Below are positions 28,785 through 34,212 of a DNA stretch of 38,081 nt, in pieces. Source of the stretch: Rubellimicrobium sp. (GTDB taxonomy: Bacteria > Pseudomonadota > Alphaproteobacteria > Rhodobacterales > Rhodobacteraceae). The notes beneath the pieces are model-generated. The model made no database searches, was not told the DNA's origin, and saw only the letters and a list, made by a program, of their open reading frames with translations. Made by a program: the position numbers and the translations under genes. The stretch's first letter is position 1; every line of letters begins with the position of its first letter. The DNA is taken from the NCBI GenBank assembly GCA_020832515.1, contig JAFIEN010000003.1, forward strand, positions 1 through 38,081, given 5' to 3'.

Positions 28785-28883
28785 TTCTTTTGTTCCCAAA
28801 TATCCCGGGGGGAGCGGCGCAGCCGGGCGGGGGGCGCGCGGGCCCCCCCCCCCCCCGCCCCCCCCCCCCCCCCCCCCCCCCCC
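28785..28883. repeat. Intergenic repeat-like segment ending in a long poly-C tract
   Basis: The segment contains TTCTTTTGTTCCCAAATATCC followed by a GC-rich stem-like part. It ends in 14 C (28843-28856), one G, then 26 C (28858-28883). From memory, TTTTGTTCCCAAATATCC-type sequence recurs between genes in Rhodobacterales. It lies downstream of the 78-residue gene (- strand) and upstream of the histone deacetylase-like gene. Homopolymers this long are prone to sequencing or assembly error and to slippage. Confidence 0.6.
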
Positions 28884-30216: not shown

Positions 30217-30945
30217 TCAGCCCCGCCCGACGAAGGGCATCTTGGTCGCCATCACCGTCTGGAACAGGACATTGGCCTCGGGCGGCAGGTCGGCCATGCG
30301 ATAGACGGCGTCGGCCACGATGCCGACATCCATCGTATGGGGCACCGCCCGGCCGGCTGCCTTTTCCCGCTCGATCAGGGCCTCGACCATTTCGGTCCGG
30401 GCATTCCCGATGTCGATCTGCCCGCAGGCGATGTCGAATTCGCGCCCGTCATAGGCCAGCGTCCGGGTCAGGCCCGTCACCCCGTGCTTGGTCGTCGTAT
30501 AGGTGACCGACCCCTCGCGCGGGGCATAGGCCGAGATCGAGCCGTTGTTGATGATCCGCCCGCCCTGGGGTGCCTGCCGCCGCATCCGGCCGAAGGCGGC
30601 GCGGGCGCAGAGGAACATGCCGGTCAGGTTCACCGCCACCGCCTGATGCCAGTCCGCGACCGGGATCTCGTCGATGGGCGCGGGCGGGGTAAAGATGCCG
30701 GCGTTGTTGAACAGAACGTCGATCCGCCCCGCCTCGGCGACAAAGGCGTCGAAGGCGTGATCGACCTCGTCCTCCTGCGTCACGTCGCAGGGCAGCGGCA
30801 TGGCCGCGTCATGGCCCGCGGCCATCTCGACCAGCCGGTCGGCCCGGCGCGCGATCAGCCCGACACGCCAGCCCTCGGCCAGGAACTTTCCGGCCACGGC
30901 CCGGCCGATCCCGCTGGATGCGCCGGTCACGATGATGGTTCTCAT
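30217..30945 (-). CDS. Short-chain dehydrogenase/reductase
   Basis: 242 residues of the classical SDR family. The cofactor loop TGASSGIG (7-14), the NNAG motif in DVLFNNAGIF, and the catalytic Ser/Tyr/Lys set in NNGSISAYAPREGSVTYTTTKHG are all present. The N-terminal ARRADRL suggests NADP preference, an inference. The substrate is unknown. The ATG overlaps the stop of the helicase gene as ATGA, so the two unrelated products are co-translated. The ribosome site GGGAGAGGACGA lies within the helicase end. Confidence 0.92.
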   Translation of the reverse strand: MRTIIVTGASSGIGRAVAGKFLAEGWRVGLIARRADRLVEMAAGHDAAMPLPCDVTQEDEVDHAFDAFVAEAGRIDVLFNNAGIFTPPAPIDEIPVADWHQAVAVNLTGMFLCARAAFGRMRRQAPQGGRIINNGSISAYAPREGSVTYTTTKHGVTGLTRTLAYDGREFDIACGQIDIGNARTEMVEALIEREKAAGRAVPHTMDVGIVADAVYRMADLPPEANVLFQTVMATKMPFVGRG

Positions 30946-32468
30946 TCGTCCTCTCCCTTCAATTGCAGTCGCACAGGTGCCTGCGCCAGATCCTCGATCC
31001 CCAGCGCCGTTTGCGGTCGCGCCAGCATGGACCGGACGACCCAGCGCAATTCCCGCTCGGCCCGGGTGATCGCCACATAGGCCAGCCGTTTCCAGAGCGG
31101 CTGCCCCGCCTCGACCCGGCCCATCCGTGCGGCGATGGCGATGTCGGGGCCGAAGACCTGCACCACCTCCCATTGCGAACCTTGCGCCTTGTGGATCGTC
31201 ACCGCCGCCCCGTGCAGGAAGGTCGCGCCCATCTTGGCGGCATAGGGGATGAAGGGTTCGTCCTCGCCCTCCTGCTCGATCCGCACGATCGAGGCGGCAC
31301 TGATCTGCGGATCCTCGGCCCCCATCACATGCAGGCGCGAAAAGCCCGGCTGCCGACCGGGGCCGAGGTAGATCACCTGCGCCCCCTTGATCAGCCCGCG
31401 CGCCTCGAGATCGATCCGCCGCTTGCGTTGCTTGAGCGGCAGTTCGATCCCGTCGCAGATCAGCGGCTCGCCCGGCAGAAGGCGGTCGGGCGGTACGTCA
31501 TGGGCGGCGCGAAAGGCGTGGATCAGGCGAATGCGCGTCGCGTTGCGCCAGACAAGCACCGGGGACCGCGCCATCAGATCGGACTCGACCCTTTGCGCCA
31601 CCACGACGCGGGGGTCGCGGGCGGCGGCGTGTTCCACCATCGCCTCGAACCCCTCGAAATCCAGATCGGGGTCGCCCAGCGCATGGGCCAGGTCAAGGAT
31701 CGGATTGTCCGCATCCTGCCGGTGCACGCGGGTCAGATCGCAGCGCCGCCCCTCGGGCAGGCCGTCGAAGACCATCCCCCCCGTCCCCTGCACCGGGGGC
31801 AACTGCGCGGGATCGCCGAACAACAGGAGCGTGGGAAAGATCTCGCGCAGGTCGTCGAACTGGCGGGCGTCGAGCATCGAGCTTTCGTCGACAAAGCCGA
31901 TGTCCAGCGGCTCTTCCCGCCGTTTCCAGCCGGTGATGAAATCCGACCCCCGCAGCCCCGCAGCCGCCAGCGCCGCCGGCACCGAGGCATGGGACTGGTA
32001 CGACGCGAAGGCCCGGTCAAGCTGCAGGTCGCTCATGCCCTCGACCACCGGCCGGTCACCCTGGCCGGCCAGCCATTCGGCAACCTTCTCGTATTGCGGG
32101 TCATAGACCGGGGTGTAGAGGATGCGGTGAATCGTCGTGGCGGGCACGCCCCGCGCGCGCAGGACCGAGGCCGCCTTGTTGGTGGGGGCAAGGATCGCAA
32201 GCGTGCGCCGGTCGCGGCGCTTGCGCCCCTCCCAGTCGCCCGAGACGAGATCGACCCCCGCCTCGCGCAGCGCCCGCACCAGCGCGGCCAGAAGCATGGT
32301 CTTGCCCGACCCGGCCTTGCCGGTGATCGCCATGACCGCCGTCGCCTCGCCCTGGGGCGGGGTCAGAAGCTGGTCTTCAAGGTCGACGCCCGCCCCGCGC
32401 AACAGGTCCGCGACTGCATCCCAGGCCTCGGCCTGGTCGGGAGAGAATGTAAGGGCGGGCACGTTCAT
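30942..32468 (-). CDS. RecD-like SF1 DNA helicase
   Basis: 508 residues. Walker A is GKAGSGKT (50-57), Walker B is GFVDESSML, and motif III is LLFGDPAQLPPV. The C-terminal UvrD-type helicase half shows TIHKAQGSQWEVVQVF and YVAITRAERELRWV (motifs V and VI). The protein lacks the N-terminal HhH region of full RecD2 and the RecB/RecC partners, so it is a short RecD-like ATP-dependent 5'-3' helicase. The role is inferred as DNA repair or replication. The ATG at 32468 lies in the spacer following the luxI remnant. Confidence 0.9.
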   Translation of the reverse strand: MNVPALTFSPDQAEAWDAVADLLRGAGVDLEDQLLTPPQGEATAVMAITGKAGSGKTMLLAALVRALREAGVDLVSGDWEGRKRRDRRTLAILAPTNKAASVLRARGVPATTIHRILYTPVYDPQYEKVAEWLAGQGDRPVVEGMSDLQLDRAFASYQSHASVPAALAAAGLRGSDFITGWKRREEPLDIGFVDESSMLDARQFDDLREIFPTLLLFGDPAQLPPVQGTGGMVFDGLPEGRRCDLTRVHRQDADNPILDLAHALGDPDLDFEGFEAMVEHAAARDPRVVVAQRVESDLMARSPVLVWRNATRIRLIHAFRAAHDVPPDRLLPGEPLICDGIELPLKQRKRRIDLEARGLIKGAQVIYLGPGRQPGFSRLHVMGAEDPQISAASIVRIEQEGEDEPFIPYAAKMGATFLHGAAVTIHKAQGSQWEVVQVFGPDIAIAARMGRVEAGQPLWKRLAYVAITRAERELRWVVRSMLARPQTALGIEDLAQAPVRLQLKGEDE

Positions 32469-32525: not shown

Positions 32526-33158
32526 TCAGGCCGTCAGCGGCAGGGCGACCGGATGGCCGAAGGACCGGGCGAACCAGTGTTCGGACAGATCCGACGTCAC
32601 CCCCGCCCGCGCAAGCAGGCTGTCGCGGACGCTGGCATCATAGTTCCAAAGGCCCACGCTGATCGCGCCGCGCCCGTGGCCACTTGTGCCCAGAACCTCG
32701 GGCAGGGCGCCGATCATCCGGTAGACCCGCGTCATATGCGCATCGAACACCCCCACGAAATGCGTCATGTCAAATGCCCGCATCAACTCCCCCCCCCCCA
32801 GCATGAGCGCCGAGGCCACCCGCGACGGCGCCTCGCGGGCAATTCAGAAGCGGGTGCATTCCCAGATGAAGGGGCTGCGGATCGGGACATCGTTGGTCAG
32901 ATGGCGGAAGTGGTCGTTCACCATCGTCCGCCCGGTCGTCGGCAGAAACCGCATCGAGCCGCCATGCCGACCATCGGGCAGTTCCCAGATCACGTAAAGC
33001 GGGTCAAGCGCGTCGTATTCATCCGTTTCCCAGCCACGCGCATCGACCGTGACGGGCCAGCCAAGGCGGCGCTGGAACTGGTCGGCTCGATCCAGGTGCA
33101 TCGAGGTCTGCAACCGGGGCAGCGACGACAGATCGTGCCCATGAATGTAGCGGAGCAT
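32526..33158 (-). pseudogene. luxI: LuxI-type acyl-homoserine-lactone synthase interrupted by in-frame TGA
   Basis: Read through, the frame is 210 residues, normal for LuxI. It carries the invariant Arg24, Phe28, Trp34, Asp46, Asp49, Arg70, Glu100 and Arg103 (QFQRRLGW, DEYDALDPLY, GSMRFLP, WECTRF). Codon 105 is TGA (32844-32846) where homologues typically have Cys in WECTRFC; a TGC-to-TGA change explains it. The remaining 105 codons stay in frame and still read as LuxI (FVGVFDAHMTRVYRMIGALPEVLG). The C-terminal half, which forms the acyl-chain pocket, would not be made except by read-through or from an internal GTG/ATG (32819, 32804). An 11-C tract lies inside it. A sequencing error cannot be excluded. 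Confidence 0.85.
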
Positions 33159-33278: not shown

Positions 33279-34052
33279 CTATTCGGCGTTCATCCTTTGT
33301 CGTCCGGGCCAGTCACCGCGCGCGCCGCGCGCCGCACCACCCAGAACAATCAGGCCATCGGCCAGTGCGCGCGCGACCGCATGGGTGGTGTTGGCGGCCC
33401 CCAGCTTGAACCGCGCGCTTTCGATATAGGCCCTGAGCGTATGCTCCGAGATGCAGAGCATCTCGGCCACCTGACCGCGGGCGTAGCCCATGGCAAGAAA
33501 GGTCAGCGCGTCGATTTCCCGCGGGGAAAGGCCGCGGGCGGGCTCCGGACTGCGTCCGCTCTCGAATTGAAGGGCCTTGAGGTTGAACGTATGCGCAATC
33601 AGGATCAGATCGCGCCGATGGGCCGCCGTGAAACGGGCCCATTGTGCATCTTCGCAATGATGCGACACGCTGAACAGCGCGAATTGGCCGTTCGGGCCAC
33701 GGATCGGGATGGAAAAACCCTGATTTCCCACTCCATGCGCAATTGCGTCAGCCAGAAAGGCCCGCGCCTGCCGCGAGGACCAGTCAAGCTCTTTCCAGTC
33801 GACGGGCTGGAACCTCTGGAAACAGCCGATGACCACCGGGTCGATCCGAAGATACTCCTGATCGACATAGCGCTGCGCCCAGACCGGATCGTAGGTGCCG
33901 CAGCCATATTGCTCACCATCGGAAGAGACCCAGTGGTAAACGACGTGATCGACGGCGTATTGATCGCGCAGGTCAAGGATCAGGGCCTGGACATCGGATA
34001 ACCCTCGTGCCTGTTCAACCCGCTCCAGAAAGTTCGCAACATCCAGTGGCAT
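33279..34052 (-). CDS. LuxR-type quorum-sensing transcriptional regulator
   Basis: 257 residues. The N-terminal autoinducer-binding domain keeps the conserved Trp58, Tyr62, Asp71-Pro72 and Trp86 (TYDPVWAQRYVDQEYLRIDPVV, QPVDW), positions that contact the acyl-homoserine lactone in TraR. The C-terminal GerE-type helix-turn-helix begins LSPREIDALTFLAMGYARGQVAEMLCISEHTLRAYI. A normal start is ATG at 34052, preceded by GGAG with nine bases; a TTG at 34061 is possible. It sits immediately upstream of the broken luxI on the same strand. All ligand-contact positions look intact, so it may still respond to outside signals. Confidence 0.93.
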   Translation of the reverse strand: MPLDVANFLERVEQARGLSDVQALILDLRDQYAVDHVVYHWVSSDGEQYGCGTYDPVWAQRYVDQEYLRIDPVVIGCFQRFQPVDWKELDWSSRQARAFLADAIAHGVGNQGFSIPIRGPNGQFALFSVSHHCEDAQWARFTAAHRRDLILIAHTFNLKALQFESGRSPEPARGLSPREIDALTFLAMGYARGQVAEMLCISEHTLRAYIESARFKLGAANTTHAVARALADGLIVLGGAARGARGDWPGRQRMNAE

Positions 34053-34212
34053 CAGCAGCAACTCCGACGGGATCCTCCGCGGATGCCTCGATCAACTCTC
34101 CCGCCGCCACTTGTGCGCATTCCTCAAGCTCGGCCGCGAGCAACGGCAGATCGTTGCACTCGGCAAAGGTCTTGAGATCGGCGAGCACATCGATGATCCA
34201 TCTCTGTCCCAT
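34015..34212 (-). CDS. Small acidic protein upstream of luxR, unknown function
   Basis: 65 residues, starting MGQRWIIDVLADLKTFAECN and rich in acidic and Ala residues (LLAAELEECAQVAAGELIEA), predicted as one long helix pair. It overlaps the luxR start by 38 bases, so translation of the two may be coupled. The ribosome site is weak (AAGAAAG). I do not know the family; small genes of this sort occur near luxR in related bacteria, to my recollection. The composition fits coding sequence of the window. Confidence 0.55.
   Translation of the reverse strand: MGQRWIIDVLADLKTFAECNDLPLLAAELEECAQVAAGELIEASAEDPVGVAADATGCCELSGAG

Follow-up and report, generated by a model that had tools for sequence, protein, structure and literature searches.

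In our reading, the DNA described here holds the standard luxR-luxI locus of the Rhodobacteraceae, and it appears, on a balance tipped just past even, that in the Rubellimicrobium strain or population that was sequenced its luxI gene very recently gained a single nonsense codon. The case is one of ordinary, very recent gene loss or of a draft-genome error, and no new mechanism is needed to account for it. The features on which the argument turns all lie on the minus strand of the window, by which we mean the whole stretch of 38,081 nucleotides that was analysed, and are as follows.

30942-32468, minus strand: RecD-like helicase/ATPase (function name inferred) downstream of luxI, a conserved neighbour that marks the orthologous locus
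32526-33158, minus strand: luxI-type acyl-homoserine-lactone synthase frame, 210 codons with one interruption, orthologous to 45 intact Rhodobacteraceae copies
32789-32799, minus strand: run of 11 G inside luxI (C on the plus strand); in relatives, the longest G run of this gene measures 3-7
32844-32846, minus strand: premature TGA, codon 105 of luxI; Cys in all 45 orthologues read
33279-34052, minus strand: intact luxR, 257 aa, with autoinducer-binding and GerE helix-turn-helix (HTH) domains
34015-34212, minus strand: small ORF, 65 aa, overlapping the start of luxR; its place ahead of luxR is conserved in the family

Results

The first-pass annotation had described a luxI frame with a single stop, placed where homologues carry a cysteine, and both points were borne out. 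Namely, translation of positions 32526-33158 on the minus strand gives 210 codons and a terminal stop, the sole interruption being the TGA at codon 105 (32844-32846 in plus-strand numbering); with this TGA at codon 105 of 210, a complete open frame for both halves of the fold is absent. In the alignment, codon 105 is a Cys in 39 of 39 homologues as well as in six nearer relatives, which makes 45 orthologues in all, and these intact copies use TGC or TGT there without exception, none of the 45 having a stop. Read through the stop, the frame scores 67.9 bits against the Pfam profile PF00765 (Autoind_synth, cut-off 24), and the 104 residues before the stop reach 54.1 bits by themselves. These residues keep the catalytic set that is conserved in the family (the R/F/W, D/D, R and E-x-x-R positions). 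The Cys at codon 105 is not known to be catalytic.

The gene order small ORF-luxR-luxI-helicase is conserved across the Rhodobacteraceae. In particular, among related whole genomes and 22 genome contigs, most homologues have luxR just upstream and the RecD-like helicase just downstream, and an orthologue or relative of luxI is present in 227 of the 395 family genomes surveyed. Given this shared neighbourhood and wide occurrence, the luxI locus is the standard chromosomal one and not a stray fragment; no plasmid match for the luxR-luxI locus was found. The LuxR beside luxI is encoded by one full-length frame and carries both domains by which a LuxR-type AHL receptor is recognised (Autoind_bind, 122.9 bits; GerE, 35.5 bits), and, judged by its length and domains, it is as intact as had been proposed. 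Among the approximately 150 matches listed in the family survey, the only stop-bearing luxI copies are the one from Rubellimicrobium and an orthologue in another genome (G273:C14:1433890-1434513, minus strand), in which a TAA falls inside the match, possibly near the variable C-terminus. The small ORF at 34015-34212, which is without a Pfam or NCBIfam match, is found at nearly all orthologous loci with a core resembling W-I-x-D-V-L-x-D-L-x-x-F-A-x-x-N-x-L, and it is perhaps a third, hitherto undescribed, member of the luxR-luxI operon.

Beyond the TGA, no second lesion was found in the whole luxI frame. At columns conserved in at least 90% of the other homologues, luxI departs at 1 of 42 before the stop and at 1 of 20 after it, which is in the range of intact copies and agrees with the earlier description of a C-terminal half that is otherwise intact. 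Of the 207 nucleotide sites at which ten relatives are identical, luxI departs at 4, the figure for intact copies being 3-10. Its similarity to relatives is 0.60-0.63 in the C-terminal half and 0.66-0.70 in the N-terminal half, and pairs of intact copies normally show such a ratio. Had the gene been useless for long, one would expect more lesions, and none are present; consequently, the lesion is either very recent or absent from the organism. This is the choice between very recent loss and sequencing error that had been put forward at the outset, and the artefactual look of homopolymer runs in the draft, described below, speaks for keeping both sides of it. The same evidence bears on the possibility that luxI is an older pseudogene and its LuxR by now a true solo. 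Such a history would fit an intact luxR adjoining an interrupted luxI, but a gene with neither a second lesion nor an excess of unusual substitutions makes it exceedingly improbable.

Were the stop absent from the organism, it would be an error of consensus or assembly, luxI would be intact, and the two genes would form an ordinary working luxR-luxI pair. We regard this as a serious contender, if somewhat short of an even chance. The Rubellimicrobium draft consists of 461 contigs, is 88% complete, and holds 2,534 overlapping 10-mers of G or C; among 20 other genomes searched, which were unmatched for GC content, the counts range from 0 to 680, with 14 genomes having at least one such 10-mer and none more than 680. 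In a sample of readable contigs, we find a G50 run at the 3' end of a contig (L106, 6807-6856), C21/C32 at the 5' end of a contig (L089, 1-54), and G22/C21 runs that face each other inside a contig; the runs at contig ends are what failing read tails would leave in a draft. In two-channel sequencing chemistry G is the unlabelled base (PMC11140927), and the long G runs of the draft look like read tails defaulting to it; what is more, Illumina substitutions are concentrated after GGG or CGG (PMC4787001). Inside the window, C14 and C26 runs with one G between them occupy positions 28843-28883, a stretch that poly-G sequencing most likely introduced into the assembly as an artefact, and luxI has its 11-G run at a distance of 45 bases from the stop. 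Measured against the nearest relative, codons 105 and 106 are both different, at two adjacent bases, and a single local fault in base calling could account for this. Finally, the lack of decay in luxI also fits an error.

That said, two ordinary changes would fit codons 105 and 106 too, as a few homologues have Ile at codon 106, and the 11-G run is in the correct frame, one synonymous difference away from relatives that already have G7. (Phase variation through this run was considered separately and rejected, since no relative exceeds G7 at this point and the frame is correct.) Most other genes of the window are long open frames, and, outside homopolymers, stops look rare in the part of the draft that was sampled. 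Namely, when a sample of the draft was compared with the proteins of two relatives, approximately 22,000 aligned residues yielded one other believable premature stop, in an A16 tract, in a survey of low power that comprised 83 alignable segments and in which many other hits were antisense or edge artefacts. With the one such stop inside a homopolymer, substitution-type stops look uncommon in this draft. The stop in question (L103, near 7576, contig C5) interrupts a conserved gene within the run of 16 A and is probably an assembly artefact; homopolymer damage, in other words, probably does break genes in this draft. Weighing these points, we lean slightly towards a real nonsense allele of recent origin rather than an error in the consensus.

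A TGA in the very place of an invariant Cys codon is also the classic signature of a selenoprotein, for which reason the selenocysteine machinery was looked for. A profile search of the 88%-complete genome returned only sub-threshold relatives of SelA and SelB, and in the search for tRNA-Sec the best matches examined were ordinary Ser, Gly, Lys, Leu and Arg tRNAs, with Ser at the top. (An apparent TGA within a SelB-profile match on contig C257 was dismissed, since it overlies an EngB/YihA-like GTPase whose own frame is open.) A 7-bp inverted repeat, CCCGCGA/TCGCGGG, does lie just downstream of the luxI TGA, but the minimum-energy fold does not form a hairpin from it, and in general folding the RNA downstream of the stop is no more stable than its shuffled versions (z -0.52). 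For selenocysteine to stand in place of the conserved Cys, three separate genes would need to be missing from the assembly; with SelA, SelB and tRNA-Sec not found in it, we reject selenocysteine at codon 105 as scarcely credible. An altered genetic code is excluded as well: TGA ends most coding sequences of the window (23 TGA codons among 27 approximate CDS counted), and, as the usual stop there, it leaves no room for a general reassignment.

One could also argue that the stop is leaky. Low-level read-through of the UGA, for instance by tRNA-Trp, would give traces of full-length LuxI, perhaps as a form of regulation, and both halves of luxI are indeed under normal constraint. The base that follows the UGA is an A, and a UGA followed by A is a leaky context in E. 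coli, according to the older literature. However, recency explains the normal constraint equally well, the downstream RNA structure is unremarkable by the z value given above, and the conserved stop by which programmed read-through is recognised is shared by 0 of the 45 orthologues read, on which ground conserved recoding was rejected. With the selenocysteine machinery undetected in addition, the regulated read-through proposed in the first-pass annotation found no support. We consider a leaky stop very unlikely, and its stricter form, in which a real TGA is maintained so that slight read-through provides lactone synthase in a small, adjustable dose, a shade more doubtful still.

Discussion

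What would a real recent nonsense allele mean for the cell? Translation would stop after 104 residues, and the truncated LuxI would lose the second half of its GNAT-like fold; with that half gone, it should be unable to make lactone. The only signal left for LuxR to answer would be that of neighbours or of the second luxI of the genome. Namely, contig C250 of the same genome carries a second luxR/luxI locus (L002 / L106) with an uninterrupted luxI of 226 aa, together with a full LuxR of 220 aa and a LuxR-like protein of 177 aa that has the autoinducer-binding domain only. This HTH-less protein recalls CerN of Cereibacter sphaeroides (PMC11655674). The idea that the cell listens without making signal was, therefore, right about the intact LuxR, while its other half, the absence of signal, is weakened because the second locus has an uninterrupted synthase.

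If the allele is real, we are dealing with a natural variant, signal-negative and receptor-positive, met at nearly the moment of its origin, one that would be useful for studying the spread of signal loss in the Rhodobacteraceae. If, on the other hand, it is an artefact, it serves as a warning that draft genomes damaged by poly-G are a poor basis for calling losses of quorum sensing.

It is instructive to set the locus beside systems that are already known. The chromosomal luxR-luxI systems of the Rhodobacteraceae, such as those of D. shibae with LuxI1/LuxI2, have the same order of small ORF, luxR and luxI with the helicase downstream, and the LuxI described here is approximately 47-71% identical to the orthologues found; the Rubellimicrobium luxI differs from them by one internal stop. 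With bacterial selenoproteins in which UGA stands for Cys, it shares a TGA at an otherwise invariant Cys codon, but differs in that the selenocysteine machinery was not found in the Rubellimicrobium draft. LuxR solos that arise by loss of luxI combine an intact LuxR with the lack of a working adjacent synthase, as the present sequence would if the stop is real; here, however, the interrupted luxI is still present and undecayed, and the genome has a second, uninterrupted one. Finally, D. shibae with an engineered deletion of luxI1 is signal-null and responds to added lactone (PMC6473078). Since added lactone rescues it, the signal-negative, receptor-positive state is workable and not novel, and this deletion strain would be a model for the behaviour of the present allele, if the latter is real.
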